Origin: Zygaena filipendulae
Lineage: Eukaryota > Arthropoda > Insecta > Lepidoptera > Zygaenidae
Length of the DNA stretch: 64,000 nucleotides
NCBI GenBank assembly: GCA_907165275.2
Contig: OU015669.1
Coordinates: 2,006,501 to 2,070,500, forward strand
Direction of reading: 5' to 3'
The notes under the pieces are model-generated. The model saw only the letters and a program-made list of their open reading frames with translations. It was not told the origin of the DNA and did no database searches. The translations under genes were made by a program, and so were the position numbers. Positions 157 through 62,965 of the stretch are shown here, piece by piece (position 1 is the stretch's first letter; each line of letters starts with the position of its first letter).

Positions 157-797
157 TTGAAATATTGAAGAAAAAATGGAAGAATATAAAAGACCATTAC
201 AGAAAGGAACTTAAGAAAATTCCACCAACTCGATCAGGAGATGCTGGTAATGATATCGTATCTAGTTGGAAACATTTCCGTCAAATGTCTTTCATGAGAG
301 ACCAAATTCAGCCTAGCCGAAGTGAATCTAATATCACTAATGAACTAACAAGTGACAGTGATGAAAACGATGATACGCAAGACTCTCGAAGTGATATAAA
401 TGTCGCATCACCGTTGTCGAGCATAGCAGTATCTTCACCAGCACACTCTCCGGCTCCATCTTCAGTTCCATCAACTTCAAGTCGAGGAAAAAAGAGGAAA
501 TCAGCTAACGAACTGCGCTCTGAATTCTTGGAAATAGAAAAAAAGCGACTTTTACTACTTCAGAACAAAGAAAGTACACGCAATACCACACAAGAAGCGC
601 CAAAATCAGACGATTATCATTATCTGATGAGCTTACTTCCACAACTTGAACACTTCAAAGGGATTCAAAAGTTGCGAGTCAGAAACAAAATAAATTCCAT
701 TATTATGGCCGAGCTACAACAAGAAAGTTTTCCAGATCCTTATATGACACAATATGGTCATCATAGTACACCGCAAGATAATTTGAATAACTACTGA
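157..797 (+). CDS. MADF/BESS protein, exon 2 (partial gene)
   Basis: Second exon of the DNA-binding accessory gene of Harbinger C; exon 1 lies left of the window. The exon opens after a TTTTTTTACAG acceptor in phase 1, as in the complete copy at 38031-39882. It encodes the second half of the MADF domain (LKKKWKNIKDHYRKELKK, then a SWKHFRQMSFM segment), a long Ser/Pro/Asp-rich linker, a Lys/Arg-rich stretch and a C-terminal BESS-like motif around DDYHYLMSLLPQLEHFKG. MADF domains are Myb-related DNA-binding folds and BESS motifs mediate protein contacts. The protein probably acts in the nucleus with the transposase. The reading frame is intact. Confidence 0.85.
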
Positions 798-872: not shown

Positions 873-1153
873 CTCAAAGTCAATATAAGTTTCTGCTCAG
901 GAGATATGGTTAATGGAATAAAGTTAGTTGATGTTTTCGATAACTGTGTTTTTACGGCATTTAATATGTAATCAAAAGTTGTTATTGTCATTCGAGTGTA
1001 ATCATAAAATTTATCTTCATAATTTCGAAGCCTTTCGTATAAAGTATAAAATTCTCCATGCCTATACCGATCACTATTGATATCGTGGCGATTGGTTTTA
1101 GAAAAAAAAAGGTCCCACTTTATATAAGCACTAGCTTCCAAATAATCCGACAT
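873..1153 (-). CDS. Harbinger transposase, exon 1 (partial gene)
   Basis: First exon of the family C transposase on the minus strand, from ATG at 1153 to a donor (GAG/GTAAGAA) after 873. The roughly 94 residues contain the usual N-terminal region of HARBI1-like proteins (GEFYTLYERLRNYEDKFYDY, then TTFDYIL). The catalytic DDE exon lies left of the window and can be seen in the second copy (38203-39067). The frame is open. The first exon lies downstream of the MADF exon on the opposite strand, so the two genes point toward each other and interlock. Confidence 0.85.
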
Positions 1154-9390: not shown

Positions 9391-11247
9391 ATGGCGGCTG
9401 CGTCAAATGTGCAAACCGAGAGGGTTATACAAGAAGTACGACTTCGACCATGTCTTTGGAATCTCCGCGATAATTCGTATAAAAATAAAGACGCGAAATT
9501 AAAGGCATGGATAGATGTTTGCGAAGCTGTTTGTCCGAATTTCGGAGATAGTTCAGGTGAAGAAAAAAAACAAATCGGTAAGTAATTTTTATTGAAACAT
9601 CTGTGTTATCTAATAAATATAACTATTTTGCCAAGGTAAAGATCCTTCATTTGAGACAAAGTAATTTGCAAAATTATCTCTTATTGTATTGCCCGATCGT
9701 GTACTGTCATTAATGCGAGCATTGTAATCTGTAAATCCAGCTACAATCATAGCGTCTTCTTCCGTATAACCATCGCGTACTCTAATGAAATTGTGTAAAA
9801 TGTAGCACGCTTTGATTAAAATTTGTGCAAATGATGTTGATACATTGATAGATCTTTGGAATATTGCAAATTTGTTTGTCAATATACCAAAACTCGATTC
9901 TATGTATCGGCGTGCACGACTTAACCTGTAATTAAATATTTTTTTTTTGTGTGTCAAATTTGTACGCGCGTATGGACGAAGTATAGTATTGGAAATTCCA
10001 AAAGCTGCGTCTGCTACAATGACATGTGGCTGTGGGTTGATAGATGTGCCTGGTAATAATTTTGGAGGTGGCAAATTTAGATCATCTCGTTCAAGTCTAT
10101 GAAATAACGAACTTTTCTTGAACACATTAGCGTCTGCTTCGCTGCCACAAGCCCCTACATTTACATAGGTAAAACAGTAATTGGCATCACACATTGCAAG
10201 TAAAATAATAGAATAAAATTGCTTATGGTTGAAAAATACGGATCCACTTTCTTTTGGGCACGTGATTCTGGTATGCTTTCCGTCAAGGGCACCTACGCAA
10301 TTGGGAAAATTGGCGTCCCTTTCAAAGCCAAGTGCTATTTTATTCCAAAAATTTGGATCAGGTTCAGGCAGACATTCGTTTTTCAAAATTTCCCATATTA
10401 ATGAGCATACTTCTTCAATAATGTATTTAATTGTGGATAGCCCCAATCGATAACTTAAATGCAAATCAGACATTCTTGACCCAGTAGTCAGGTACCTGCA
10501 ACAAAAAAAAGTGTGTATTAAATAAGTAAAGTTACTAGCATGTGTTATTTTACTATTTATAATATTATTTAATTTACAGAAAAAGCTGTTCAGTTAAGAT
10601 GGAAGACAGCTCGTGATGCATACATGAAGTGTAGAGCAAATCTTAAGACATCAAAGTCCGTTTCTGCAGGGGGTGTAAAAAAGAAGTATATTTTTTTCGA
10701 TATAATGACGTTTTTGGAAGACACAAAGGACTTTGAACCCACACATGAAAGTATGGCTTCAACATCGTCGCAGAGCTCCCAAAATGTTGCTTCAACGTCA
10801 TCGCAAAACTCGCAAAGTATTTTACCTATTACCACGACCCCGGACTTGCCATCAACAGAAGAAACATTTCAGACACCTGTGCTGGCTTCTCCAAAACCGT
10901 GGCAGAGAAAAAAAAAGAGATGTATGACAGACTTTGAGTCACAATTATTGAAAATAATAGAAAAGAATGACACTTCCACCACAAACTCTGCGTCGTCTAC
11001 GGCTCTTAAAGACGATGACTTCAATTTTTTTAATTCCCTAGCACCTATTATAAACGATTTCGATAATTATAAAAAATTGTTATTCCGAACTAGAATACTG
11101 GAGCTAGCTATGGAAATTAGAGGTCCAGCTATGAACTCGCCCAGCACATCTGCATCAACCGCTACCAACGATTTACCTCAATTATCAGGGAGTGATGTGG
11201 ACGAGTCTTTAGAAAGCTGGCAACACGGTGATTACACTGCATTGTAA
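9391..11247 (+). CDS. MADF/BESS accessory protein of H1 (two exons)
   Basis: Exon 1 is 9391-9577 (ATG in GTCATGG to donor CG/GTAAGT), exon 2 is 10580-11247 (acceptor AATTTACAG). The intron is phase 1 and about 1 kb long, and it contains the whole catalytic exon of the transposase on the other strand. The roughly 285-residue product starts with a MADF domain split by the intron (LRPCLWNLRDNSYKNKD and AWIDVCEAV; then VQLRWKTARDAYMKC and YIFFDIMTFLED). A Ser/Thr/Gln-rich linker, a basic KRKKKR-like patch and a BESS-like motif (FNFFNSLAPIINDFDNYKKL) follow. It is likely a nuclear DNA-binding partner of the transposase. No breaks seen. Confidence 0.85.
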
Positions 11248-11634
11248 TTAATTACATAATTACATTTTAAATTGATTATAAAATTTTAATTAAAAATTTT
11301 TTTTTCATTTATTTAACCTTTAAATTTAAGTACCTACTTACCTAATTGTTACAGCCAATCTCTCCCGCGAACATATGGGCTTCTTGTATATATCGCAACG
11401 CATTAAAGATGGCTCTAGTTTCGCATGCAACTCTTCAAATGTCCTAATGGACATCTTGAAATATTTGAAGAATTTCATTTCGTCATCCTGCAAGTCCGAA
11501 AACAAGGATACAAATTCTCCTTTAAGAAGTCTTTTCTCAACCAGTGGATGCACATTAAATCTTCTACCATGGCGTCTTCTTCTTCTGTTGTTTAATAAAT
11601 AGGCCGCAATCACCAAATTCAAAGTTTTATCCAT
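9610..11634 (-). CDS. Harbinger transposase of H1 (two exons)
   Basis: Exon 1 runs 11634-11342 (minus) and ends in a GTAAGT donor. Exon 2 runs 10495-9610 after acceptor TGCAG and starts with the typical YLTTG. Together they make about 390 residues, the usual HARBI1 length. Exon 1 has an Arg-rich N-terminus (RRRRRHGRRF) and the FKMSIRTFEELHAKL helix. Exon 2 has the DDE core: VGALDGKH (first Asp), VIVADAAFG (second Asp) and IESSFGIL (Glu), with NYRLSRARRYIES between. It catalyses element excision and insertion at TWA targets. The intron holds all of MADF exon 2. Frames are open. Confidence 0.9.
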
Positions 11635-15527: not shown

Positions 15528-15764
15528 TGTGTAGGGCTAACTAGGTTTTGCGCCGTTCGTGTATCGAATCTAAAATTAGATAAATTTAAATAAAACTAAT
15601 TATGCAAATACTTAAACGATAGTTCAATCTCAACCTAAAAGAATCATGGGTTATACGAAAACAACTAAAATAGAGTTCTAACCACTAGACAATCAGGCCG
15701 AATAATTAAAAAGTAGATAAAAAAGGGACATCTAACATTCGCGAGGGGTGGGTAAGTTACAAAT

Positions 15765-24879: not shown

Positions 24880-24970
24880 ACGTCATTAACAGCGCGCGCC
24901 TAGATGGCGCCTGCGCTCCCCCCTTTCATTCTGCGTTGTACTGAGTTGCCGGGCGGTTGTGCGAAAAATT

Positions 24971-27579
24971 ATGTCAGACTCCGAGACTTTTGACACGGAT
25001 ATGTTTATTGAGGAGATTCGCAATTTGCCATGCATTTGGGATCAAAGGACAGAGGAGTATTCTAATCGCATATTAAAAAACAAAGCATGGGAAAACCTTT
25101 GCATGAAGTTTTATGAAGATTTTGATAATAAGGAAACAAAAGAAAAAAACCAGTGTGGTAAGTTTATTAATTACTATTTATTAAACCGAGTATACCTAAC
25201 AACACCATTCACGCTTTATTGTACTGCCACGATAATTCACCTTCAGGGCTCACAAAATAGTCGGCAAATTCATTTCTAACAGAATCTGCTCGAATCCCGT
25301 CATGACTTTGATCAAAGGAATGCATTCGTAACAAATTTGAAGTTACCGATAAAGTGTCATCGAATTTATAGCCATCTCGCTTGCGTACTATATTATGTAA
25401 TACGACACATGCTTTCACTATGTCTGTTGCAAATTCAACTGACACGTTAATTGGCCTATGCAATATTCGCCATTTGTTAGTCAAAATTCCAAAGGAACAT
25501 TCCACATATCTTCGTGCTCGTGATAATCTATAGTTAAAAACACGTTTTTTCATTGTTAATTGCTTGCCGCTGTATGGTCGCAGCAAATGTTTGTGTAATC
25601 CAAAGGCTTCATCGCCAATGAATACCATAGGCAAGGGCCTACCTACAGGGCTAATTGCTTGCGGTCCAGGTAGATCTAAATCATCTCTTTCCATTGCATC
25701 ATATAAACTGCAGTCCCTCCAAATAGTTGAATCAGAAGTTTTACCGTAGGCTCCTACATCAACATACACGAATAAATAATCGGCGTCACATACGGCCATT
25801 AAAACAATAGAAAAGAAATGTTTATAATTAAAGAATAATGAACCACTGCGTGGTGGATGAATAATCCTAATATGTTTCCCATCTACAGCCCCTAAGCAGT
25901 TTGGAAAATTTGCTTTCTTTTTAAATTTGTTCGCAATATCAAGCCACATTGTTTTAGTACATGTTGGTAAATGAATAGGCTGTAATTTATCCCAAATCAG
26001 GCGGCACACGTCGTGGACAATTTTGCTGGCAGTTGAAGTACCACATTTAAACAAATCGGCGAGATCTTCAAACGAACACCCCGATGCCAAATATCTGTAA
26101 CAAAAAAAATTAAAAACAAATAATAATGAAATGGAATTATGGAATTATACAGGGTGTTACAAAATGTTGAAATAAATAACACTGGGGTCATTGTACTGTA
26201 CTCATGAATATGAACAACTTTTACTGTGGGAACACATCGAAATCGTAAAAAATCAGCTGTTTCATACATTTAGGTTATATAGGTATATGTATCCCCATAG
26301 TAAAAGTAGCTCGTGTTGAAGAGTACAACGACCCCTTAAAGTATTAGGTATTTCAACCTTTTTTAACACCATTCAATAGGCTGATGATATTTTAGGAAAT
26401 GATCGATCTTACATTATACTGGACTAATATAAAATAAATCCAGTTAATTTTAATATGGTAAAATTAAAAAAAATGTAAAATATTAAATACCACTTGTGTA
26501 TATATTACATAACGTGTAGTCCACGCGGGTAGAAAGCTAGTACATTAAATAATTATATTACGCTTTCAAAAAGCGCTTATGCCACCGGTATAAGAAAAAC
26601 TAATCATTTATCAAACCACATAAAGCTTGGCTGTCATAAATTTAAGAATAACTTGAAACTATCAACATGGATATTTAACTATACACAAATTATCTTCAAT
26701 ACTGAGTTCATTTTAATATGATCTGATCACTGTAATTTCGATATTGTAAAATATTATTATTATTATTTTATGTTATTTTCAAATTTAACCACCAACTTTT
26801 CTACAAATTTCAATTTAACAATTAATTTTTCAGCTGCCAACTTACAAAGAAAATGGAAAAGCTTAAGAGACTCTTTCAACAGAGACCTTAAAAAACAAAA
26901 TTCACAGAGAAGCGGTTCAGCAGGTAGTTCAAAGCGATACTACTACTTTAGTCAATTATTATTTTTGAAGTCATTGTCTGAAAATCGAAATACAACATCA
27001 TCTCTACCAGTACAAAACAAAGACGATGACATCGAACAAATCGATAATGAAGACGATAATACTACTGAAACGAGTGACTCTGAAGTTTGGAAGAGACCAA
27101 CAAATATCCAAAGAAAAAAAGATGATGCAGAATATGGGTTAATAAAAAAAATAACAAGTCATTTGAGCGATCAAGTAACTGCACATACTCGTACACAGGA
27201 ACCTGACAAGTCCTGTGACAGTGATATGCATTTTTTGCTATCTTTATACGATAGATTTAAGACCATTCGCGGTGATTGGAAACTGAATGCTCAGATAGAA
27301 ATATTGAATGTAATTCAAAAATATCACACACCTACAACTACACGTAATGATAATTACAGTGAATATGGACAGGGGTATACGACACCAGCGTACCAACCGT
27401 ACGAGCGACCATCAACAGCTAGGTATCGGCCGGATATGGAAACAGGCTCTCCACAGCTTCGCAATTTGCGTACTGCATCCACACCAAGAGATATTTCAGT
27501 ACCAGAATCTCCACTCAGCGTCTCTTCTCAGGCTTCAAACTATAATGATCCGATTATAACGGATATTTTCGGAGATTAA
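24971..27579 (+). CDS. MADF/BESS accessory protein of H2 (two exons)
   Basis: Exon 1 is 24971-25157 (ATG in AATTATGTC, donor TGTG/GTAAGT) and exon 2 is 26834-27579 (acceptor TTTTTCAG). The intron is phase 1 and holds the entire catalytic transposase exon on minus plus a foldback MITE. The roughly 310-residue product has a MADF domain split by the intron (FIEEIRNLPCIWDQRTEEYS, AWENLCMKFYEDF; then NLQRKWKSLRDSFNRDLKK and YYYFSQLLFLKS), an acidic linker (DDDIEQIDNEDDN), a BESS-like motif (MHFLLSLYDRFKTIRGDWKL) and a Thr/Ser/Pro-rich tail. The upstream region was separated from the left terminus by Gypsy1, so expression may be altered although the frame is open. Confidence 0.85.
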
Positions 27580-28191
27580 CTGATTACCTACTCTGTTGAT
27601 TTTTGAATTCCAAAATAAATAAAAATATATAAGTACGTTCTTTGTTTTCGCCTTCCTATCCTCCCTACCACAGTTGCAAATTAACTCATTGGCAAAATTT
27701 TTTTAATTAAAGTGGCGCTAGTGCCGCGAGCAAAACCAGGTAGGTACGGCCTCTTAATTTGCACCTGTATTTTATATTTTATAAATTAGTTTCATCTGCC
27801 CGGTGAGTCTGTCCCGGTAGATGGAACTAATTATATTTTCTAAGTACTTAAAAATAATTAACTATGAAAAAAAATTTACTCACCTCAATGTCATTGCCAG
27901 ACGTTCAACAGATGGTATGCTTTTTCTCATGACCGTGTCTTTTTTTTGCAACTCACTATTCAGTTCGTTTAACAAGTAGTCAAATGTATCCTTGTTCATT
28001 CTAAATTTTTTATAAAATTTCTTCTTGAACCTTCGAATTTTAGGATAATCAGTACGAAATTGGCCTTGACTTTTGTTTTCCAATAAAGGATGTACCCAAT
28101 AAATTCTATTTCGACGAATACGCTGATGTCGTCGTCTTCTTCTTATTAATAAAAGCCATAGCAAGGATAGCAACAACAATCTTTCCTCCAT
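25209..28191 (-). CDS. Harbinger transposase of H2 (two exons)
   Basis: Exon 1 is 28191-27884 (donor GAG/GTGAGT) and exon 2 is 26094-25209 (acceptor GTTACAG). About 397 residues. Exon 1 has a Leu-rich start, an Arg/His patch (RRRRRHQRIRR) and FRMNKDTFDYLLNEL. Exon 2 has YLASGCSFEDLADLFKCG, LGAVDGKHIRI (Asp 1), VFIGDEAFG (Asp 2) and YVECSFGIL (Glu). The C-terminus ends with the conserved RNEFADYF-type helix. The intron contains MADF exon 2. Both exons are open. LINE-B sits just upstream of the start (from 28229), so the promoter side is disrupted. Confidence 0.9.
26153..26370. mobile_element. foldback MITE in H2 intron
   Basis: About 218 bp with ends GGTGTTACAAAATGTTGAAA and, on the minus strand, GGTGTTAAAAAAGGTTGAAA. 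The interior is also palindromic: GGGGTCATTGTACT pairs with AGTACAACGACCCC, and ACTTTTACTGTGGG with CCCATAGTAAAAGT. No coding sequence. It lies in the shared non-coding interval between the two facing acceptors. Confidence 0.75.
26371..26833. other. intronic spacer with possible Helitron end
   Basis: Mostly AT-rich non-coding intron. CCACGCGGGTAGAAAGCTAGT at 26521-26541 resembles the 3' end of lepidopteran Helitron fragments (a GC-rich tract, then CTAGT), but the hairpin is weak. Confidence 0.35.
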
Positions 28192-33701: not shown

Positions 33702-33755
33702 TCCATATGGGCACTTACCTGTATTTACAGTGAAATTTCTATAAATAAATAAATA

Positions 33756-37179: not shown

Positions 37180-38030
37180 TTAGGCTTCTATCAGACAGAG
37201 AGCGGTCACGCGGTCAAGCGTTCAAGCGGTCAGTTTTGCGTTCTCCGTGTTATATTACGTTACATAGAGCCCGCGCACACAGAGGGCGGTCAGGAGTTCT
37301 GAGTTCTGAGTTCCGCGTTCGCCGTTCATTACAATGTACCGAGTCTATAACTACAACGCACACAGCGGGCAGTCTGACCGCGGCGGTCAAAGCGGAACGT
37401 CGCGTTCTAAGAGTTCTTTTCCCGCCAAGACAAGGAACGCCTGAACGCCGCGATGTCTGAAGTTGCAAACACGGAAAAGTTAATTGAATTGGTTAGGGAA
37501 AGGAGATTAATATACGATTTAAGTGATGTAAACTATAAAAACCGCGACAAAAAAGCCGAAGCTTGGCTTGAAATTGCCACAGAAATGGGATTTGGAGAGA
37601 GTAAGTAAAACATCACATTGTAATAATAATTTTATATTTCAATCATTTGGATTGACAATTGGTATATATACCTACCTATTGATTAAAATAAGCGATATAT
37701 TCGTCCCGAATTGCATACGCTGTATAGTTGGTTCTGTTCATATTTGTTCGCTGAAAATTTTGAAAGCCGGTACTGCGTTGATCATTGTTTATGTCTCGGT
37801 CATCATCATAGATGTGACAATCTCCTTTTACTCTAAAAGTGTGCAATTACAGTGGCGGCGGGGCGGGCAGCGGAATCCGCTGGCGGGTAACGCAAACACA
37901 TAGTTTTTGACTAAGGTGCACCAAGTGCGGGCGGGGCGGGTGAGCGGAAATCGCAGCGGGACAAGCGGGTGTTGCGAGCGTGGCGGGTGGACGCAAGTCA
38001 GTATGCGTTTCCCGCTCGATTTGTTCGGAC

Positions 38031-39882
38031 ATGCCGCTGACGACTGAAGATTTAATAAGTGCCGTATTGGCTCGGCCACCTTTGTGGAATTCTAGTGATT
38101 CAAATCATTCGAATCGACAAGTAATTAAAAAACTGTGGGAAGAAATAAAAATAATAAGCGGAGATTCTGATGGTAATTAACTTTTATTAGTTATTTTCAT
38201 TGTTATAATAAAGTATTAAAATAATCAGTAAAGTCACTTCGTACTGCTCTAGCCCTCGCTGTAGAGCTATTGTTTTGTCTAGAACTTGATGCTGAGTTTG
38301 TTGAATATATTTGATTGATTAAATGCATATGGCGATCGGCGTGAACATCTTTAGTCATAGTGATGTTATGAAGCAAACATGCAGTTTTTATTATTAGGCG
38401 TGCATGTTTAACATTTGTTTCTATAGATTTATTAAGAATTCGCCATTTGGCACACAGAATTCCGAATGCACATTCAACGCACTTTCTGGCCCTTGATAGC
38501 CTCTTGTTAAATACTTCTTTGTTGTGGTCGAGGTTTCTTTGAGGATATGGGCGCATGAGGTATTCTTTTAATGGGTAAGCTTCATCGCCAATCAAGACCA
38601 AGGGTAGCTGCTTGTCGGTGCCTGGAAGCGTTTGAGGAGGTGGCATATTGAACCTGTGGTTTTCTAATTGTTTATTTAATCTTGAGTAGTGGAACGTGCC
38701 ACCATCACTCTGTTTGCCTCGACCACCAACTTCAACTACGATAAACTTTTTATCAGCATCAGCAACTGCTTGAAGCACTAAAGAAAAAAACTTTCGGTAG
38801 TTAAAGTATTCAGATCCTGAATGTTTAGGTTTCTTTATACGACAGTGCTTTCCGTCAACTGACCCGATGCAGTTCGGAAATTGCCATTTTTCATAATAGT
38901 CATTTGCTATTTTCTTCAATTGTTCCATTGTAGGTTGAGGCATGTGTATATGTACTAACTGATCCCAGATTGCTTCACAAGTGGTATATATAATTTTGCC
39001 AACAGTAGTCGCTCCTAATCGGAAGGAAAAAGCTAGTGCTTTGAATGACATTCCCGTAGACAAGTACCTGCAAATAAATAGTACAGTAAGCTACAATTTA
39101 CAAGTAAAAAGCTGGCAACATTAGGTAGATATTGCCAAAAATCAAAAGGCGTTGCCAGCTTTTTACCTATTGTAACTTGTAGTTTAGATAAACGGTCTCC
39201 AGGTGCAAATGACATTCACGTGAACAAACATTTTTTTACAGTTGAAATATTGAAGAAAAAATGGAAGAATATAAAAGACCATTACAGAAAGGAACTTAAG
39301 AAAATTCCACCAACTCGATCAGGAGATGCTGGTAATGATATCGTATCTAGTTGGAAACATTTCCGTCAAATGTCTTTCATGAGAGACCAAATTCAGCCTA
39401 GCCGAAGTGAATCTAATATCACTAATGAACTAACAAGTGACAGTGATGAAAACGATGATACGCAAGACTCTCGAAGTGATATAAATGTCGCATCACCGTT
39501 GTCGAGCATAGCAGTATCTTCACCAGCACACTCTCCGGCTCCATCTTCAGTTCCATCAACTTCAAGTCGAGGAAAAAAGAGGAAATCAGCTAACGAACTG
39601 CGCTCTGAATTCTTGGAAATAGAAAAAAAGCGACTTTTACTACTTCAGAACAAAGAAAGTACACGCAATACCACACAAGAAGCGCCAAAATCAGACGATT
39701 ATCATTATCTGATGAGCTTACTTCCACAACTTGAACACTTCAAAGGGATTCAAAAGTTGCGAGTCAGAAACAAAATAAATTCCATTATTATGGCCGAGCT
39801 GCAACAAGAAAGTTTTCCAGATCCTTATATGACACAATATGGTCATCATAGTACACCGCAAGATAATTTGAATAACTACTGA
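38031..39882 (+). CDS. MADF/BESS accessory protein of C (two exons)
   Basis: Exon 1 is 38031-38172 (ATG in GGACATGCC, donor GATG/GTAATT) and exon 2 is 39242-39882 (acceptor TTTTTTTACAG), joined in phase 1, about 261 residues. MADF: LISAVLARPPLWNSSDSNHS and IKKLWEEI from exon 1, then VEILKKKWKNIKDHYRKEL and WKHFRQMSFMRD from exon 2. The middle is rich in Ser, Asp and Pro. A KRLLLLQNKE helix and a BESS-like motif (YHYLMSLLPQLEHFKGIQK) follow. Its intron encloses transposase exon 2. The expected role is binding the GGGCGGGCAGCGG subterminal repeats or bringing in the transposase, by analogy with Harbinger Myb-like partners. Confidence 0.88.
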
Positions 39883-40238
39883 TTCTTTTTTATTTCTGTA
39901 ATTAAAAGTTGATTCTTATTAAAAGTTTAATTATTATTAAAAGTTTTGATTTCTTACCTCAAAGTCAATATAAGTTTCTGCTCAGGAGATATGGTTAATG
40001 GAATAAAGTTAGTTGATGTTTTCGATAACTGTGTTTTTACGGCATTTAATATGTAATCAAAAGTTGTTATTGTCATTCGAGTGTAATCATAAAATTTATC
40101 TTCATAATTTCGAAGCCTTTCGTATAAAGTATAAAATTCTCCATGCCTATACCGATCACTATTGATATCGTGGCGATTGGTTTTAGAAAAAAAAAGGTCC
40201 CACTTTATATAAGCACTAGCTTCCAAATAATCCGACAT
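38203..40238 (-). CDS. Harbinger transposase of C (two exons)
   Basis: Exon 1 is 40238-39958 and exon 2 is 39067-38203, joined GAG/G as Arg-Tyr-Leu, about 381 residues. Exon 2 motifs: YLSTGMSFKALAFSFRLGAT (helix-turn-helix-like), CIGSVDGKHCRIKKP (Asp 1), LVLIGDEAYPLKEYLMRPYP (Asp 2), CVECAFGILCAKWRIL (Glu) and AVRSDFTDYF at the end. All catalytic residues are present and there are no stops. It is probably the active enzyme that moved both C copies. Its intron contains MADF exon 2 and the foldback hairpin. Confidence 0.92.
39087..39186. repeat. foldback hairpin inside Harbinger C, copy 2
   Basis: The same 100-bp inverted repeat as at 2-101. It lies between the transposase exon 2 acceptor (ends at 39068) and the MADF exon 2 acceptor (ends at 39241). 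That explains why these acceptors are 174 bp apart here but 26-91 bp apart in A, B, D and H1. Confidence 0.75.
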
Positions 40239-42534
40239 TATTATTGTTTATAATATCGCACGAGGTAGATACGTCCGGACCGCTCAATCGCCCCGCTGCT
40301 ACTGTGTTCATCCATTGAAATGTGCGTTTTCCGCATGACCCGCCACCCACTCCCGCTGCCCGCCCCGCGCCACTGTAATTGCACACTAAGGTAATTGTGT
40401 AAACAACACGCTGCTTTTACAACATCAACGACAGTGTCTACATTGAGTTCCAATGGCTTAAAAAATACCCGCCATTTTTGAGCCAAAATGCCAAATGTGC
40501 TCTCTACTACACGTCTTGCACTACTGAGTCTCTTATTATATGTCCTTTTTCTTTCATCCTGTATGGTTACATTAGTTGGGAAAGGTCTCATCAAAAATGT
40601 TTCTAATTTGAAACCGCCATCTCCAATAAAAACGTGAGGGACTGGCTTTTCTCGACCTGGTAACGGCTTTGACCCGGGAATGTTCAGCTGATTGTTAACA
40701 ATTTTTTGATAGAATGACGTCCTTTGGAAAACCGTACTGTCACTATCTTTTCCATAACTGCCAACATCAATCAAAATAAATTTGTAATCTGGATCCACCA
40801 CTGCAAGCAACACAATAGAGAATCTTTGTTTATAGCAAAAATGTAATGTTCCCGTATTAGGTGGGCATTTTATATAAACATGTTTTCCATCGATACTGCC
40901 AATACAATTTGGAAATCTCCACTTCTCACAGCTTCTGCCTCCTTCCATGTTTTTTCAGTCGGCTCTGCCATATATAGTGGTTGTAATGTGTTCCATATAA
41001 CTTTACTTACTTCCTTCACTATTTTACCAACTGTTGTAAATCCCATACGGTATGAATGGCCAATTGTTTTAAACGTATCTCCTGTAGCAAGGTACCTGAA
41101 ACATTTTTTTTTTGTTTTTAGGTAAAGTATGGATAGCCAAGTGGAAGAGTCTGAGGGATAACTACAACAAGTACAAGAAAAATAATGAATCTTCTACAGG
41201 CCAGGCTTATAAAAAGTATAAGTCTTGGCCATGGGCTTCGCAATTGAGGTTTTTAGACGATTTTAATTTTAGAAGACAAACAGAAAGTAATAGTGAGCGT
41301 TCTCCAGCCAACGATTATACCACTGTTACAGCCGACACAGAGAACTCTACGATGAATGAAACACAAAATACTACACATTCTGAAGTTTCTGTATATGCAA
41401 CTGGACCAAGCAAGCAAATTACGAGAAAACGAATAAAAACGAGCACAGACCCCAGTGATAGTGATAAAATACTAGAATATTTAAAAAATAAAGATGAAAA
41501 AAAAGCCAAAATGGATGGAGTCGATCATTTTTTTTTAAGTTATGCACAAACTTTTAAGACATTCACACCTAGAATGCAAAGTATGGTAAAGCTAGAAATG
41601 GCTTCTCTATTTGCCCGGTACGAGCTACAACTGGTAGAAGGGAGTGATGCAATTGCTTCTCAAGTTGCACCGCGATCAGTCAATCAAAAAGGCCTTGCAG
41701 CTCTACACCTAATTCGGAGTCGGTTCCAAGTCCCTATGATCAGAGTTCAAGTTCGTGGGCCGTTCCTAGCCCTGTTTCTCAACAGTTTCCGGAACCTGGT
41801 AATGCATCTAATCAAGAAAATAGGGTGTTTTACGTCCTTTCACCACAATCAACTCCAACAATTCAAACAGCTAGTCCACCACCGCAGCCACAGTTGACTG
41901 GAAACCTAAGAAATATTACGAAAACATTTCTAAATGAACGTTTCGTATATTTTGTTATTAATTTACTTTAATGTCTTTTCTTATCATTAATAAATAAATA
42001 CATACCTTAGAAATACAGCCAGCCTTTCTTTTGATGAAACACATTTTCTCCAGTTAGTATTTTGTTTTTCGATAGCAGGTTTTATGATGTTATACAATTC
42101 ATTAAAACTATTAATCGACATTCGAAAATAAACATAGAATCTTTGTTCATCTTTAAGTAAATCCTGAAAAATATTACTAAATTCGCCTTGTTCTTCTCGC
42201 GTTGTGTTAATTGGGTGCACCCAATACTTCCTTTTCTTTTTAGAAGCTGCTAAGCTCCACAATAACAATAGTTCTTCATCGGATGATGAACTTTCTAGTG
42301 ACATGTTGCACGTCCATAGACTCAAATGAAACTAGAACGCGAGAATTTGAACGCCGCTTGTGTGCGTTGGAACTCTTGAGCGGTCAACGGTCACTAGAAC
42401 GTAGAACTCTGACCGCTCTCTGTGTGTTCACGCTCATAGATATACTCACAGAGGAGGCATCCTGACCGCGTCGGTCAAGTAGAACGCAGCGTTCGCGCGT
42501 TCATTGCTGTTTCGGAGACCAAATTGGAAGGAAG

Positions 42535-44766
42535 ATGGAGACCGAAAAGCTAATTATGTTAGTACGTGAAAGGCGTATTATACGATGCGAAGGATAAAGA
42601 TTATAAAAACCGAGGAATCGTAGCCGAAGCATGGTTGGAAATTGCCAGAGAAATGGGAAACGAAAATGGTAAGCCATAAAATAGTGTTTTGAGAACATGT
42701 ATTTATTGCCACTCGTTCAAAAACTACCTACTTTTTTTAAGGAAAATAGAAAGGTATTTTTACTAGCTAGGTTTTGTAGAATAACAATAAAACCTCAGTC
42801 ACAATATATTTTATTACCTACATCGTTATTCCAGCCAAAATTTAAAGTCGAACCACAGATCAGTAAAGTTACGAATGAAAAAGAATAACCTGCCAACACT
42901 AAAGAGACTGTAATGCATATAATACTTCTTGTAATACCTTATTTATGATACATACTTTTATACCTACATATAGTAGTATAGTAGTATGCAGAAGTAATTT
43001 GTTGGTAGATACATAATGAAGCAGTTTGACACTTATTATATTAATGTTGACTAAAATATGAAATAAAGTGTTCACGAACTTCATATGCTGTCATATTACT
43101 TCTCTGGGCATTTGGTGCGAAATCATTAAAAGATCGGGCATTCATATAGTAACGACGAACCATATCCTCATCTACCACTTTGTTGTCCCCCTTAATTCTG
43201 AGGTAGTTGTGTAAGCAACACGCAGCTTTTATAACTTCGTTTGTTGTTTCTGTGCTTAGTTCAATTTCATTCATAAAAACCCTCCATTTCTGAGCCAAAA
43301 TTCCGAATGCACTCTCAACTATACGCCGTGCACCACAAAGTCTGCGATTATAATTTGCTTTTCTATGGTCCCGAATTACTATGTCAGTAGGAAATGGTCT
43401 CATTAAAAAATTTTCTAACTTGAAACTACCATCTCCTAGAAATACGTGAGGCACAGGTACTTCCATCCCTGGCAATGGCTTTGGTGGTGGTATATTAAGC
43501 TCATTGTCAATCAACTTCTTGTAAAAGACAGAATTTTGAAAAATTGTGCTGTCACTGTCTTTGCCGTAACTACCTACGTCAATCATAATAAATTTATAAT
43601 CAGAGTCCACCACTGCCAGCAATACTGTTGAGAATTTTTGTTTATGACAATAATGCAAAGACCCCGTGTTGGATGGGCATTTTATTGTTACATGTTTGCC
43701 ATCTATACTGCCTAGACAATTTGGAAATCTCCATCTTTCATGAAATCCGATGACAGACTGCTTCCACATTTCTTCAGACGGGAATGGCATGTATGTTGGT
43801 TGTAGATTTTTCACAATTGCACTACATGTTTCCTTGATTATTGTTGTAACAGTAGATTTTCCCATACAATATGAATTGCTTATTGTGGATGAGTAATCTC
43901 CAGTGGCAAGATACCTGAAACAAATATAAAAATACAAATATATTAATAACAAGTTTGTTATAAATGTGCAAATCCGAATTGATCGTCGTTCATATTTGTT
44001 TACAGGTAAACAATGGGCTACTAAATGGAAAAGCTTGAGAGAAAATTATAAGAAGTTCAAAAAGTCAACAGAAACGGCTTTTGGATCTGCATATAAAAAA
44101 TACAAAAATTGGCCTTGGGCAGATCAGCTGCGCTTTCTAGATGATACCATTGCACTGAATGAAACTGATAGTAATATTAACAGTGAAAATAGCAACAGCA
44201 TTTCACAAGTTTCTGACTCAACCAACCAACCAAGTCCAAGTAACAGTGTTGATTTGCGAGATTCTGTCTCGGACTCTGAGAACCTCTCCCGTCCCGGTTC
44301 CAGTAATAGTATTTACTCTAGAAATTCTGCCAAAAATAAAAACATAACACAAAAAGGTGATTCAGATCCACAACAGCAACTGTTAAAATATTTACACGAG
44401 AAGAATCTTAACAAGAGAAAACTTGATGATATTGATTATTTATTTCAAAGTTATGCGACTTCTATGAAAAAAATTCCGGCTCGCATGTAAAGTATGCTCA
44501 AATTAGATATGGCAACATTATTTGCAAAATATGAAATGCAAATCCAAGATAATATAAATATAACTCCAGTCAATTCACCACCAACTAACTTGTCTACTGC
44601 AGATTCCATATCATATAAGTATTCATCCGAAGACAGTATGTTACAAGATGTTGAAGACTTACAAGGTCTGGCTGAATTGTCATCACGCGAAATGGATGAA
44701 TTATTACATGATACACAACATGTTCAGTCAAATGAAGTAAATCAAGACCAAAATACGTATATCTGA
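42535..44766 (+). pseudogene. MADF/BESS accessory gene of B (broken)
   Basis: Exon 1 is 42535-42668 with donor AATG/GTAAGC. Compared with A it lacks two bases near 42575 (in CGTATTATACGATG), which shifts the frame before YKNRGIVAEAWLEIAREMG. Exon 2 opens at 44006 after TGTTTACAG (KQWATKWKSLRENYKKFKK, NWPWADQLRFLDD). It has an in-frame TAA at 44488-44490 where A has CAA (RMQSM), then continues in the same frame (LKLDMATLFAKYEMQIQD) to a stop at 44766. So there is one frameshift and one nonsense change. Confidence 0.8.
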
Positions 44767-45165
44767 ATTTTCCTGAGCTTAGACGGTGTTATGAAGAAGC
44801 CGCTGAAGTAATTAATAATGATAATGAATAATTCTTAAGAATATACATTAATTTGTTTAAGGAATAAAGTAACTTACCGCAAACATACCACCAATCTTTC
44901 TTTTGCTCCAGTTAGTATCTTGTTTAAGTAAGTCATGTTTAATTTTGTCATACAGCTCATTGAAGGAATTAAATGTCATCCGAAAAGAATTATAAAAAAT
45001 TTCTTCGTCATTAACCCATTTAGAAAAAAGTCTATGAAATTCTCCATGTTGTTCTCTATCCTTATTTACTGGGCGCACCCAGTATTTTCTTTTCCGTCTT
45101 GACGCTGATAATGACCACAAAATCAATAATTCGTCTTCTGAAGAAGAACTATCGTCAAAAAACAT
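43041..45165 (-). pseudogene. Harbinger transposase of B (exon 1 damaged)
   Basis: Exon 2, 43914-43041, is fully open: YLATGDYSSTISNSYCMGK, CLGSIDGKHVTIKCP (Asp 1), VFLGDGSFKLENFLMRPFP (Asp 2) and IVESAFGILAQKW (Glu), ending with VREHFISYF. Exon 1, 45165-44878 (DDSSSSEDELLILWSLSAS, KRKYWVRPVNKDREQHGEF, SFRMTFNSFNELYDKI), has lost about 14-16 bases near 44910 relative to A, so the frame at the splice donor no longer joins exon 2. The catalytic exon alone would be intact. Confidence 0.8.
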
Positions 45166-45497
45166 GGTGACACTAGTGGTACCGCGTGGACCGTTCAACA
45201 GCGGGGTTCGTGAGCAATTGCCCGCTCGAACGCAGAACGCGAACGCAGAACGCTTGACCGCGTGACCGCTCTCTGTCTGATAGGAGCCTAAAATTGGTGC
45301 GATGCGCTGAGTTCATGCTGTGCTATATCACGCGCCGCCCTTTTCCTCCTCCCTCACCCCCGGCCGAAAGCGAAACCAGCGACACAACACGTCTGGACAC
45401 GATCCTGTGTGTGCCTGCGACGGATTTGCACTGGCGCCAAAAGATTGTTTTTGTCGTAGTTTTTCTCTTTTGTAGATCTAGGATCTAGGATTACAAC

Positions 45498-46687
45498 ATG
45501 GAACACTTTATAGAGAGTGTAAGAAAATATCCGTGCCTGTGGAACACTACAACAGAACAGTACAAAAATAATGCATTGAAGGATGCAGCGTGGAGAAAAG
45601 TAAAACAAGAGTGTGATCTCCCCGACAGTGAGTAAATATTTTATTTAAAACAGTTATTTTGCATACGAGATAATTGATCCTGTACACGTGTGTTTTGCCA
45701 TGAGACTCGTCCGATAGTATTAAAATATCGGCAAAATTCTTCCCGGATGAAAAAATTTTCATTGGAATATGTGAAACCGCAGTGAGTCAAAGGTATTAGT
45801 TGGTTGGTATTAAGTGGCTCTCTGGTAGTGCTGTTATAGTATTTGTTTTCAATTAGAATATTATGTAACACGCACGTGGCTTTAACAATTATGTCAACAA
45901 GTTGAACACGGCACTCAAAAGGACGCCTATATGGAGAGTATAGTTTAGTTGCCAATAATCCAAATGTGTGTTCTATTACTTGGCGTGCCCTTGACAACCG
46001 GTAGTTGAAAATTCTTCTTGAATCGGTTACTTTATTTTTTGGGTAAGCACGCATTATATGTCTTTCAAGAGGGAAAGCTTCATCCCCCACAAGAACGTAC
46101 GGTATTTCTGGGCCTCCATTATAAAGTGGCTCATCGAGAGGTTAATTTAATTGGTCAGTTCTTAATTTTTGTCCAAAAATACTGTCATTTAAAATCCCGC
46201 CATCACTAAAACGACCCATAGACCCAACATCAATATAAAGTAATCTGTTGTTTGCATCAGCCACCGCCAATAAGACAATTGAAAATATTTTTTTGTAATT
46301 GTAAAAATCGGTACCAGAGTTTGGAGGTGCTTGTATTTTAACTGCTTTCCATCAATTGCACCTATGCAATGATCAAATTGGGTTATATTTTTAAAATCAG
46401 CAGCAATATTTTTCCAGTTCTCTGTAGTTGGCTCTCTTAACACCAATGGTTGAAGATGAATCCATAAAGCGTTGCTAACTTCTTCAACAATACCAGATAT
46501 TATACTTATTCCCATTCTGTAGCTATATCCCATAGAAGTAAAAGAGTCAACTGCAGCCAAAAACCTGAAAAAAAAATTAATAATTAACTATTATGTTTCA
46601 GTCAAAGAAGCAAAGAACATGTGGAAAAAATTAAGAGATGGATATAGACAAGCACTCGGTAGGAAAAAATGTACAACAGCAGGCGAA
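45498..46687 (+). pseudogene. MADF gene of D (truncated by F)
   Basis: Exon 1 is 45498-45627 (MEHFIESVRKYPCLWNTTTE, then ALKDAAWRKVKQECDL) with donor GACA/GTGAGT. Exon 2 starts at 46602 after GTTTCAG (KEAKNMWKKLRDGYRQALG, then RKKCTTAG) and is lost about 85 bases later where F begins. Phase 1 junction as in the others. The MADF domain is therefore split and incomplete. Confidence 0.75.
45641..46564 (-). pseudogene. Harbinger transposase of D, catalytic exon (frameshifted)
   Basis: The exon starts at 46564 after TTTTTTTCAG. The first part (46560-46189) has YSYRMGISIISGIVEEVSNA, HCIGAIDGKQ (Asp 1; Gln where relatives have His) and a readable but slipped stretch near 46330. The second part (46090-45641) has MGDEAFPLERHIMRAYPKNK (Asp 2) and VIEHTFGLLATKL (Glu). 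Between them (46090-46189) some bases are missing or shifted. Exon 1 would lie to the right and is not visible near F. Confidence 0.75.
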
Positions 46688-48663
46688 TCGCGGTAATAAA
46701 AAATATGATGAAACGTCTACGCTTCGTTTGCGTTTCAGCTCTAGTTGAGTTCCATTTTAGTTCCAGCCAGTGCGAAATTTCGTATCGCGGTAAAGTTCAC
46801 GCGCAAGCTAAGATGAAACTCAGATCGAACGCAACTCGAACACAAGGGTATTAGAAATGTTAGAGATGTAACCACAGTATTCACATCGTTACCGCTATTT
46901 TTATACAATCGATGGTCGACTTAGTGGTTTTTTGTCGCCGCACTGGCTTTGACAGCTAACATTGACAGATGTTTCGAAAAAGCGAACAAAGAATTAATTT
47001 ATTTGAATGTTTTAAAACTTGAGTCGTATGGTTTGAAGTGGTTCCAATAGTTTCAAGTGGTTCTACGTATTCTCAGTGGTATGGAATTTATACTCCCATA
47101 CAATTTATGCCAGTCGTGCTTTAGCTATTGTAAGTGTAACTTTGGTAAGTGATTTTATACTACCTACCTTTCTTGTTTGAAATTGAAAACGATGAAACTT
47201 TTAGATGAAATCATGTAACCCTTACTGTTTTTTAGATATACCATAAAATGGAAATCAGCCGGAGACACAACACAGTCCGTCAGCTAGAGGTGATGGTAGA
47301 GTTTTTGGAAGCACATCCAGACCTCGCCCTCGGTCGCGTAAGATCTAAAGAAGCAAGGGCAGTGGCGCAGAGACTGTGGCAGGAGTGCGCGGAATCCCTC
47401 AATGCTTTGGGACCGGCGAGGACCGGAAAGGAGTGGTCAAAGGTATGTTGTTTTAGACTAAATTTAAAATTATATGATATGTGTGAAATAGTGTAAATAC
47501 TCTACACTGTACCTAGAGGTTACATACTTTGTGTGGTCAACTATCAAAACTTTAAAACTTAATAATGTAGGTACAGGGTAAAATTAAGAACATGACCCGC
47601 ACAAAGAATTTCACCTTTAAAATTATGAAGAATTGATTTGTTTAAATGTAACTCACAAAAATTCTTTATAAAAATGTTACAGGTGTGGAATGACCAAAAA
47701 ACAAAAGTTAGAACAAAGTTAGTTAATATTAATGCCAGTCACCGGGCTACTGGTGGAGGTCCCAGCAATGCTCCAACTTTAACACGTTTACTGCGTAACA
47801 GGCCGATATCGGCCTGCCGCGGTACTTGAACTGGTGCGGACGAAGAAAACTATGTCCCTCTCGCTTGTGCGAAACGATTATCTCAGGTGTTTGTAAAAAT
47901 TCGACAGAGACAAATATATATTTCATCTTGCGGTAAATGCCGTAGTTGTTCCCCATCAAAACATAACGGCAGGCTTTTATTGACCTACCACGCACTGACG
48001 GTGAAAAAACATCCGCGAGTGCGGCAGTGGGCCTATTTCGGCCCGCCCTCCCACCAGGCAGCTGGCGACCCGATACCGCACAGAGCGCGCGCCCCGCCAG
48101 TTAGTGTTGTGCTATCTAACAGCTCTGTCGTAGCGTCCGATATTATCAACAATGGCAAGCAATAAAAGAAAAATACAAATTTTGGAAAATAGAGTAATTC
48201 GCCCTGCAGTTATTGACAGTGATAGTGACAGCAGTGAAGAAATATTTTCCACTAAGAAAACTAAAAAGGATTTGGAAACAAATGTGCACGGAAAACAAAG
48301 CACAAGCGGTAAGTTTTATTTACTACCTACACATATCAACATATCAGCCTTAGACGCATAATGACGTGGGGATTTTTTATGTAATACCATCCTTTATGAA
48401 AAAGATTATTCTTAACACTTTCATTGCATTTTAATGATTTATTTTCAACAGTTGATGTCGAGAAAATTTAGTTTTTTTGAACATCTTTTCAATTGAACCA
48501 TAATCCGTCCGCTTTTACCCCAACACTCCTTTTTCTCGCTAAATAAGACACAATAAGAGTCACAGTAAACTTTTTTTGTCAACAGCGGACGTTTTCAGTA
48601 GCCCCAGTGGAAGAAAATTTCATATTCTTAAACCAGTCTCGTTTTCACATGTAACTAAAACAG

Positions 48664-54795: not shown

Positions 54796-55054
54796 TATAA
54801 CTAGGTAACTAGAATCTACACATAATATATTTAAATTTGAGTCACACATCTGAAAAAAGTAAGTTAATAATTATAATTTAAGCTACCTACTTAAATAAAT
54901 ACACATATACATACATACCTACTACATTTAATATTTTTAATTATAAATTACTACTACTATTACCTACTAATTACTGACATAAATTGGAAATTATCAATGC
55001 AAGTATTTTCAGTAAGACAACATTAATTAATTATGTAAACGTAACATTACTCAC
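54796..55054. other. AT-rich spacer of F
   Basis: Contains two nearby direct copies of AGAATCTACACATAATATA (54779 and 54812) and TACATACATACCTACTAC-type simple sequence. No gene. Further catalytic exons of the F transposase would be expected here or to the left but are absent. Confidence 0.4.
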
Positions 55055-55480
55055 TATCAAAACATTTAAAGAATGGTACCCTTTTCTGTTCAAAAATCTC
55101 TCTTCGTGGTGATGGGGACGCACTATTGCCACATGGGTACCATCCACACAAGCCAACAGTCCGGGCATCTTAAACTTCCTGTAAAACCTAAACATAACTG
55201 TTGAAATAGTTGTTTGAAATAAAGAAACCATATTATAATTAACTTTTAGTTTTATTTTCACTGCATACACCTTTTTTTTTTCTTTACGACGCTTCGAGGA
55301 GAAATCAAAGACAAAGCCATAGACTATAGGTAATATTGATTTCACACACTGCACGAGACATTTATCCAATAATCCTATAGATGGCGCTACATGCTTTTTA
55401 TTTTGCATATTATAAGATTATAAATTTACCCAATTACAACACGCCTCCTTAAATTTATAATCTTACAACCTTTTAATTAA

Positions 55481-62005: not shown

Positions 62006-62143
62006 ATGGAGCAATTTATCGAAGTTGTTAAACAATTTCCTGTGTTATGGTACACACAGTTAAGGACTATCACAATTTAATTAAAAAGGATGTTGTATGG
62101 AAACAAATAGTGGAGGAAATAAGTAATCCAGACATACCAGACG
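62006..62143 (+). pseudogene. MADF exon 1 of J (frameshifted)
   Basis: It begins MEQFIEVVKQFPVLW at the ATG in GAATATGG. At about 62050-62060 the frame must shift by one base to read KDYHNLIKKDVVWKQIVEEI, followed by donor GACG/GTGAGT. In the original frame a TAA appears at 62078. The expected phase-1 junction fails by exactly one base, which supports a single indel. Confidence 0.75.
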
Positions 62144-62306
62144 GTGAGTTTAATTATTTTTTATTTCAAGTTTAATCTAATTTACATTATTAAAATAATT
62201 ACAAAATAACTCTCTGACACGAAATGCTTCTCTAGTTGCTCGTAAGTTGTCGTATTGTACCGATCTTAAAGTTTGCTGTTCTTCAATATTGACGGTATTG
62301 GCGTTA

Positions 62307-62687
62307 CTAGTTGTCGTTCTTGAAGACATTAAATAATTGTGCAACACAGGTAGTCTTTGTAATGACGTCCACTAGTTCCAATTGACATTCAAATGGTCGA
62401 CGAAACACACAAAATCGCGCTGTTAATATGCCGAACGCATTTTCTACTACATTTCGTGCTCTACTGAGACGATAGTTAAAGGTGTTTTTTGCTCTGTTAT
62501 CTAAACATGTACTCCGTGGGTACGGCCTCATAAAGTGTTTTTGTAATGGGAATGCTTGATCACCTATAAACACAAAAGGTGTTGGATCGCCATCAGGCGT
62601 TAAAGGTTTATGATTGGGCAAGTTTAATTGCCCGTTTTGTAATTTGTGGCCAAATGCACTATCTGCAAAAATACCTCCGTCGCTAGC
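62307..62687 (-). pseudogene. Harbinger transposase of J, catalytic exon part
   Basis: From the K junction downward: SDGGIFADSAFGHKLQNGQL, VFIGDQAFPLQKHFMRPYP (Asp 2), FNYRLSRARNVVENAFGILT (Glu) and FECQLELVDVITKTTC. After that the frame slips at about 62350 (VAQLFN instead of the usual VLHN/LHN). The first Asp and exon 1 are on the other side of K, outside the window. Confidence 0.75.
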
Positions 62688-62694
62688 CGGGGTG

Positions 62695-62965
62695 ACACGA
62701 GGCTAGTAAATCAAGCTAGTGAGCCAAGCTAGTGCTGCCAAGCTAGTAAGCTAGTGACACTAGCTTCGTGTAGACGGAACTAGCTTCGTTTACAAGCTAG
62801 TAAGCTAGTGTGGAAGCTAGCAAGCTAGTGCCTCAAGCCAGGATAGTTTAATAGCTTGGGGTTCTATTTTTCAAGCTAGTAGGCGCCCCCCACCACCCGT
62901 TTTACTATCCTGGCTTCGTTACTAGCTTCGTGTCAACCGCGAAGCTAGCGAACCTAAGCTAGTGT
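62695..62965. repeat. GCTAGT/ACTAGC subterminal array
   Basis: Around twenty copies of GCTAGT or its complement (ACTAGC), often as AAGCTAGTAAGCTAGTG, lie in both orientations with short spacers. A local inverted pair, GCCAGGATAG and CTATCCTGGC, lies at 62837 and 62920. It is a candidate binding platform for the THAP protein encoded just downstream. Confidence 0.85.

Follow-up and report, generated by a model that had tools for sequence, protein, structure and literature searches.

Interlocked antisense transposase and MADF-BESS genes in PIF/Harbinger transposons of Zygaena filipendulae

Can the two genes of a mobile element be woven together on opposite strands, so that each intron holds an exon of the other, and would this be an accident of one copy or an inherited design? 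The question is raised by element C (37838-40387), which lies in the window, i.e., the whole 64,000-nucleotide stretch of Zygaena filipendulae DNA analysed here. Element C is a PIF/Harbinger transposon with the exon order M1+ T2- M2+ T1-, in which each intron contains one exon of the opposite gene, and the four exon coordinates of the original prediction proved right to the base. We consider it highly probable (roughly 0.85) that such elements are two-gene PIF/Harbinger transposons with a derived, stably inherited interlocked architecture, with the mechanism and origin proposed below. The features of C are:

37838..37893, left terminal inverted repeat, GC-rich (88% inverted match between 37838-37888 and 40338-40387)
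38031..38172, + strand, MADF exon 1 (M1), N-half of the MADF domain; donor G/GTAATT, phase 1
38203..39067, - strand, transposase exon 2 (T2), DDE domain, within the MADF intron; acceptor TTTGCAG/G
39242..39882, + strand, MADF exon 2 (M2), C-half of MADF plus BESS, within the transposase intron; acceptor TTTTACAG
39958..40238, - strand, transposase exon 1 (T1); donor GAG/GTAAGA, phase 2
40333..40387, right terminal inverted repeat, inverted match to the left repeat, then TAA

Both frames of C are intact after splicing: M1 and M2 form a single 260-aa frame (the MADF-BESS gene, + strand), and T1 and T2 a single 381-aa frame (the DDE transposase gene, - strand) that matches PF13359 (DDE_Tnp_4 type, E 1e-29). 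The intron of the former splits the MADF domain (PF10545), of which exon 1 alone covers profile positions 1-33, exon 2 alone 45-84 and the joined frame 1-84 (E 1e-16), and a BESS motif lies downstream of the domain. The terminal inverted repeats are about 50 bp long with 88% identity; a check of the flanks for a 3-bp TWA duplication found TAA on the right and a left TAA 2 bases further out. A second copy, C', is near-identical (1-1304 is 99.9% identical to 39086-40389), and L032 departs from C by 1 mismatch and 21 gap columns in 2237. Such near-identical copies at other places imply that C has probably moved in the past.

All four exons are present in five elements of the window (A, B, C, D and H), and the order is interlocked in every one. 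In J (three exons; T1 was not found), C' (two, the rest lying beyond the window) and K (two, with a weak M1) the remaining exons fit this order, and a profile scan of the whole window yielded no counter-example. The claim that other window elements share the order of C is thus borne out completely for A, B, D and H and partially for J; the labels H1 and H2 of the original prediction are not equated one to one with the A, B, D and H used here. The exons of these elements are:

157..797, + strand, C' MADF exon 2 (second C copy, cut by the window start; coordinates by offset from C)
873..1153, - strand, C' transposase exon 1 (second C copy)
9391..9577, + strand, A MADF exon 1
9610..10495, - strand, A transposase exon 2
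10580..11247, + strand, A MADF exon 2
11342..11634, - strand, A transposase exon 1
24971..25157, + strand, B MADF exon 1
25209..26094, - strand, B transposase exon 2
26834..27579, + strand, B MADF exon 2
27884..28191, - strand, B transposase exon 1
37453..37600, + strand, D MADF exon 1
37676..41095, - strand, D transposase exon 2, broken by the inserted element C and a frameshift
41122..41897, + strand, D MADF exon 2; the gap to the facing transposase exon is 26 nt
42006..42304, - strand, D transposase exon 1
42535..42668, + strand, H MADF exon 1, frameshift
43041..43914, - strand, H transposase exon 2
44006..44490, + strand, H MADF exon 2, to the first stop
44878..45165, - strand, H transposase exon 1, frameshift
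45498..45627, + strand, J MADF exon 1
45641..46564, - strand, J transposase exon 2, frameshifts
46602..46690, + strand, start of J MADF exon 2, weak match
62006..62143, + strand, K MADF exon 1 remnant, weak match
62186..62702, - strand, K transposase exon 2 remnant

Both genes are intact in A, B and C, and H and K carry frameshifts. PF10545 was matched by the spliced genes of A, B, C and D with E-values of 2e-13 to 1e-19, and the Pfam BESS profile scored 22.5 bits in C (cut-off 21) and under the cut-off in A, B and D. Terminal inverted repeats of A, B and J were not cleanly defined among the repeats listed.

Across the same genome, the best-scored candidates (150 of 421 and 150 of 509) gave 61 MADF-DDE pairs no more than 2.5 kb apart, all of them on opposite strands. 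Among these best-scored pairs, 26 of 27 with an N-half MADF match have it 3' of the transposase, 17 of 20 with a C-half match have it 5', and BESS matches, for which all 150 transposase matches were used, are likewise 5' in 35 of 38; we put the exceptions down to other elements, nested or close by, or to a single domain that is cut. The L033 and L034 families are multi-copy. In the fetched pieces of L031 and L037, T1 and M1, respectively, were not found. Since the same two intron positions recur in families whose transposases are only ∼31-47% identical to C, and given these genome-wide tallies, chance is excluded as an explanation of the order.

A second group of elements (class 2: L016, L021, L027, L035 and L015+L029) is interlocked as in class 1, with intron positions that differ in both genes. 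Window scan, genome tallies and this second group agree, and the interlock is conserved more widely than had been claimed. Intron phases are 1 and 2 in class 1, and 0 and 0 at the settled junctions of class 2, among which the MADF junction of L027 is not counted; the statement that all readable MADF introns are phase 1 therefore holds in the window (A, B, C, D and J) and fails at the settled class 2 junctions elsewhere. The second exons of class 2 are assigned to the MADF gene because of their position, strand, mutual similarity and in-phase junctions (L016, L021 and L035). The five of them given to Pfam had no BESS match, and hits by our own BESS profile (L016, L027 and L029) were rejected as circular, the profile having been built with pieces of L016 and L027. 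In the tree, class 2 forms a grade outside class 1, with supports of 0.41-0.85 at the nodes that order it. A search of GTDB contigs gave one match, L001, a eukaryote-like contaminant contig in a bacterial MAG, and two scans of viral contigs gave no relative. The transposase of L001 has neither intron and is placed next to class 2 at low support, which points either to intron loss or to the existence of a non-interlocked relative.

In the mechanism that we propose, each gene would start beside its own terminal repeat, from a putative promoter close to it, and transcription would run inwards. The primary transcript of each gene would cross the 3' exon of the other, to be removed as an antisense intron, and the coding sequence of each would end shortly before the donor site of the other. 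The mature mRNAs would then barely overlap and, if expressed, may yield a transposase and a co-operating MADF-BESS DNA-binding partner. In other Harbingers, transposase and DNA-binding partner have both been reported as required for movement.

Why the arrangement persists is a separate matter. An interlock without function, the frozen and accidental by-product of squeezing two genes into 2.5 kb, inherited because most rearrangements would break both, comes just short of an even chance. The tight packing fits it: MADF donor and transposase stop are 30-75 nt apart in A-D (13 in J, 372 in H), and in A, B and C an AATAAA is squeezed in between. This signal also favours the mechanism proposed above; D, H and J, in which neither AATAAA nor ATTAAA was found within 120 nt of the transposase stop, speak against it. 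Facing exons are 26-91 nt apart in 14 of the 17 elements read, where the acceptors in L022-L039 were picked by eye among candidates; the gap is wider in C (174 nt), L022 (237 nt) and B (739 nt), which counts against our main reading, and the extra sequence tolerated in the latter two also suits an interlock without function. However, the topology is common to two intron classes, for which a single accident is insufficient unless both introns moved later.

Such later movement, from a single interlocked ancestor, is a plausible account of the two classes, with odds somewhat below even. It agrees with class 2 being a grade outside class 1 and with the equal topology of both, but the class change would need codons of both genes to jump over the other gene's exon and introns of phases 1 and 2 both to become phase 0, and at the node supports given above the tree does not settle the order. 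We favour an origin by tandem duplication, in which a plain convergent element would have undergone an internal tandem duplication with its ends inside both genes. The first MADF copy would then have lost its tail, as would the second transposase copy, and the two introns would have appeared together with the interlock in a single event. This is favoured because both introns differ together between the classes, because facing exons mostly lie close together and because ISL2EU-like and HARBI1-like elements are convergent; a direct precursor, which would be a MADF-transposase element of this clade lacking the interlock, was not found. That MADF-type Harbingers acquired the interlock in this way at least twice independently, and that it persists through functional inseparability or self-limitation, is a tentative and rather unlikely extension.

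It is improbable that the interlock is kept for regulation, with convergent transcription giving double-stranded RNA over ∼1.7 kb that would limit activity, or with the dosage of both proteins coupled. Antisense overlap of the primary transcripts is implied by the gene models, which predict it across most of the element, yet the plain convergent order of the ISL2EU-like elements could give such overlap without an interlock. The assertion that neither gene can be lost or swapped alone is not supported: frameshifts or an insertion affect at least one gene of H and of D, T1 was not found in J or in the L031 piece, nor M1 in the L037 piece, and the available part of one article records transposase-only domestications (PMC9710019). 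Finally, it is scarcely credible that the MADF pieces are not exons of one gene but debris of nested elements, abundant as these are in the region (C lies inside D). For class 1 this reading is refuted: splice sites and phases match, the domain is continuous, frames are intact in three families, many copies have the same order, and synonymous change exceeds non-synonymous change. Between D and H, pN and pS are 0.18 vs. 0.71 in the main part of transposase exon 2 (187 codons), 0.25 vs. 0.67 in transposase exon 1 (85 codons) and 0.39 vs. 0.84 in MADF exon 2 (154 codons, saturated); constraint is weaker at codons 1-45 of transposase exon 2 (0.33 vs. 0.50).

Non-interlocked relatives, named in the original prediction as evidence that would speak against it, were found among other Harbingers, and the interlock is kept within one lineage. 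In the same genome, ISL2EU-like elements (L010-L014, L017-L019, L024 and L025) likewise combine a Harbinger-like DDE transposase (Pfam, L010) with a second gene on the opposite strand, but this gene is YqaJ (Pfam on L010 and L013, the other eight by eye) and the two converge tail to tail as large open frames. HARBI1-like elements (L036 and L038) share the DDE transposase with C but differ in having second-gene ORFs 3' of the transposase and convergent with it, with a partial Myb/SANT-like match under the Pfam cut-off in L038 and, judged by eye, a coiled-coil-like ORF truncated where the fetched piece ends in L036. Their transposase open pieces are 22-40 nt apart, leaving no space there for an exon of the other gene. 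The insect PIF/Harbinger transposons and domesticated genes described by Markova et al. (2022) resemble C in their two genes, a DDE transposase and a MADF gene, with several domesticated pairs, and in BPLG2, which has two exons with an intron of 900-1500 bp in most species. They differ in their adjacent layout: in the portion of the article available, pairs adjoin side by side (97 and 179 bp apart in Anopheles gambiae), and the main text does not use the words overlap, opposite, orientation, nested or antisense, nor call the pairs interlocked (PMC9710019). The Medicago MtPH elements, as far as the available text goes, share with C a transposase plus second ORF, TIRs and a 3-bp TSD; their ORFs lie side by side, orf1 being upstream of the transposase in five and downstream in six, and no interlock was found there (PMC2213677). 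As all these pairs are non-interlocked, the interlock marks one lineage and not Harbingers as a whole. A classification of animal overlapping genes, which also concerns transcription units overlapping on opposite strands, distinguishes partial, nested and embedded overlap, with no interlocked class in the part available (PMC2330155); unlike those genes, the present pattern is a feature of a mobile element that recurs in many families. No paper describing the interlock was found; Casola 2007, Sinzelle 2008, Kapitonov and Jurka 2004, Zhang 2004 and Repbase lay outside the search, and the novelty of the interlock is therefore provisional. An architecture that weaves two presumably co-operating genes into each other on opposite strands, and that has survived deep divergence of the mobile element carrying it, would suggest a testable way in which two introns could form simultaneously, and bears on the co-domestication of transposases and partner proteins.

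Annotators seeking a MADF gene beside such a transposase may miss or misread it. Among the homologues listed, transposase exon 1 is absent in 76 of 77 unnamed transposase ORFs (28 of the 77 start after the motif and are uninformative on the exact intron site) and present in 35 of 43 named proteins, and MADF exon 1 is present in none of 29 unnamed MADF ORFs vs. 29 of 32 named; judged by these matches, the intron positions hold across the homologues listed. Two aphid transposase annotations (P0054, chosen for its earlier score, and P0182, found together with it, hence not a random sample) start with the antisense of MADF exon 2, and P0170 with that of transposase exon 2, matches reached by 0 of 60 shuffles each, which favours the interlock. 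The back-translation test covered 25 external ORF extensions, and the other 22, which count against it, were equalled or beaten by at least one of the 60 shuffles, including P0011, P0019 and P0113 (reached by 5-6 of 60) and P0144, although the first residues of the latter match the D antisense exon at 12 of 13. The contigs of P0003 and P0133 are both 2487 long, which hints at both exons on one contig.

Element C, a PIF/Harbinger copy situated within the transposase exon of a second element, D, lies at 37838-40387 between GC-rich inverted repeats and carries a MADF-BESS gene and a DDE transposase gene on opposite strands, with the following exons:

38031-38172, + strand, MADF exon 1
39067-38203, - strand, transposase exon 2
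39242-39882, + strand, MADF exon 2
40238-39958, - strand, transposase exon 1

The intron of each gene holds one exon of the other, an order that had been noted originally and is borne out by GT/AG splice sites at every junction and by the spliced frames, which give 260 aa (a MADF domain divided by the intron, plus a BESS motif) and 381 aa (with a DDE_Tnp_4 domain). In the sequence, the strongest sign that the MADF intron is real is that the domain is incomplete in either MADF exon taken singly.

We ran four exon profiles over six frames of the entire window, and the same interlocked order was the sole one obtained. A, B, C, D and H each retain all four exons, interlocked in 5/5, and partial copies are J with three exons, C' (a second copy of C) with two and K with two, the MADF exon 1 matches of K being weak. 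An isolated HARBI1-like fragment occupies 55049-55240. Family transposases share ∼31-47% identity with that of C, and A, B and C have both genes intact. The MADF intron is in phase 1 in A, B, C, D and J and the transposase intron in phase 2 in A to D; three computed phases deviate, two of them from H and one from K, both of which have frameshifts. Between D and H, synonymous exceeds non-synonymous change in every part compared, which comprised both transposase exons and MADF exon 2: pS 0.71 and pN 0.18 in the main part of transposase exon 2, 0.50 and 0.33 in its first 45 codons, 0.67 and 0.25 in transposase exon 1, and 0.84 and 0.39 (saturated) in MADF exon 2. The window, at C20:2006501-2070500, is insect DNA, its close protein matches being lepidopteran, and in local alignments the transposase and MADF protein of B match Maniola jurtina at 97% and 96%. 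All eight MADF-type copies (A, B, C, C', D, H, J, K; 1-62702) share one orientation, with MADF on the + strand. D, H and J lie almost end to end, and a 65-bp, 89% inverted repeat joins the left end of D (37180-37243) to the right end of H (45228-45291), 8.1 kb apart.

The suggested scoring of exon order across the Harbingers with MADF genes of this 366-Mb genome supported the interlock. Among the best 150 of 421 transposase (PF13359) and the best 150 of 509 MADF (PF10545) candidates, 61 pairs within 2.5 kb were found at 58 transposase matches, on opposite strands in 61/61. Matches to the N-terminal half of MADF lay 3' of the transposase in 26/27 pairs, those to the C-terminal half 5' in 17/20, and full-domain matches 3' in 13/14. 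The five departing pairs comprise the MADF exon 1 of J beside the H transposase, a neighbour's MADF exon 2 on C23, the MADF exon 2 of C inside D, a full-domain match of the next element on C21, and a MADF domain on C1 that a frame change interrupts, the last from an element with other intron positions (class 2, below). With the same 150 transposase matches, 58 BESS matches formed 38 pairs, 35 of them 5' on the opposite strand, 2 on the 3' side and 1 on the transposase strand; the 35 BESS matches with a transposase nearby had one partner of interlocked geometry each, and the three odd pairs were with a second element, neighbouring or enclosing. Harbinger matches cluster on C20 (1.79-2.19 Mb), C21 (2.70-2.89 Mb), C22 (2.37-2.51, 4.90-5.09 and 9.41-9.69 Mb) and C23 (2.94-3.37 Mb), regions that could be TE-dense pericentromeres or piRNA clusters.

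Thirty loci were fetched by place. Eight have intron positions as in C (class 1): L022, L023, L026, L032, L033, L034 and L039 show four exons in interlocked order (transposase exon 1 of L032 is cut by the fetched end), and L031 three exons of this pattern. Seven others represent six class 2 elements, L015 and L029 being neighbouring pieces counted as one, with 50 bases between them unread. In L016, L021, L027, L035 and L015+L029 the entire MADF domain lies in MADF exon 1, transposase exon 1 passes the class 1 intron site to end ∼40 codons beyond, and the transposase intron contains a long second ORF on the MADF strand; that of L029 was recognised only by a BESS profile built in this analysis, which is circular. 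In L037 transposase exon 1, the second ORF and transposase exon 2 were seen. Phase 0 applies to the transposase junctions of L016, L021, L027 and L035 and to the MADF junctions of L016, L021 and L035 (that of L027 was not settled); the original statement that all readable MADF introns are phase 1 holds for the five window elements but not for class 2. Both introns thus differ from class 1, and the weave is shared; the PF10545 tally by itself cannot separate class 2 from a plain convergent order, but the read loci can. The second ORFs form two similarity groups, L016-L027 and L021-L035-L037 (phmmer E ∼1e-7 to 1e-8), and gave no match to Pfam BESS. In a tree rooted on HARBI1-like sequences, class 1 groups as one clade (support 0.94), outside which class 2 makes up a grade with weak resolution.

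A further ten loci are ISL2EU-like; their second gene is convergent, identified as YqaJ by Pfam in L010 and L013 and judged by eye in the other eight, and in L011 and L018 the 3' ends of the two convergent open frames overlap. In the HARBI1-like L036 and L038 the second-gene ORFs seen also sit 3' of the transposase, that of L036 recognised by eye and cut by the fetched end, that of L038 with a partial Myb match below cut-off. The remaining three loci, L020, L028 and L030, are Harbinger-like pieces of other types. The transposase of L001 (JAHZIU010000197.1) has neither intron; this contig is filed under a betaproteobacterial MAG, its Harbinger transposase is eukaryote-like, and it is probably contamination.

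Among 120 listed of 4140 transposase homologues, exon 1 is absent in 76 of 77 unnamed ORFs and present in 35 of 43 named proteins; the start motif occurs in 49 of the unnamed ORFs and is directly preceded by R in 48, as the split codon predicts. For MADF homologues (61/61 listed) exon 1 is present in 0/29 unnamed and 29/32 named. These counts support the presence of both introns in the homologues seen, which come mostly from insects and in part from crustaceans and other groups; by themselves they do not support the interlock. Direct signs of it elsewhere number four: two aphid transposase annotations, P0054 (Uroleucon formosanum) and P0182 (Aphis craccivora), whose first ∼110-148 residues are antisense MADF exon 2, likely a misannotation caused by the interlock, and two contig ORFs, P0170 and P0144, which start with antisense transposase exon 2. 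Another 21 ORF extensions tested for antisense signal were uninformative.

We found no description of the interlock in the available text of PMC9710019, PMC9179366, PMC10027918, PMC2330155, PMC2213677, PMC2528002 and PMC7282668 or in the literature searched, a scope that lies outside key older papers; with this reservation it is apparently new within the known two-gene kind of PIF/Harbinger. Movement of the rice and zebrafish Harbingers needs both proteins (as cited in the available text of PMC9710019). Promoters near each terminal repeat would drive inward transcription of both genes, and each primary transcript is predicted from the gene models to splice out the other gene's exon as an antisense intron. 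A, B and C have an AATAAA within the 30-51 nt that separate the transposase stop from the MADF donor, so that mature mRNAs should barely overlap; none was found within 120 nt of the transposase stop in D, H and J.

As origin we prefer a tandem duplication inside an element with convergent genes, which predicts that the facing exons nearly abut.

Gaps between facing exons (nt); those of fetched loci are computed from printed positions, and L039 is a copy of A
Window elements: D 26, J 37, A 84, H 91, C 174, B 739
Fetched loci: L027 31, L016 36, L035 37, L031 40, L023 42, L026 43, L021 61, L033 75, L034 82, L039 84, L022 237

The gap of B contains inverted repeats, and a perfect 16-bp inverted repeat at 39104-39166, between the facing acceptors of C, may be a small insertion; in both gaps the repeats look like later insertions.

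Elsewhere in the window, a 3.8-kb direct repeat (11986-15762 and 21104-24880, 99.97% identical), itself containing 133-bp-spaced repeats, flanks gag-pol-like ORFs at 16180-20642, an arrangement like that of an LTR element whose LTRs are very long. An uninterrupted 529-aa ORF at 33749-35338 looks, by eye, like a piggyBac-type transposase.
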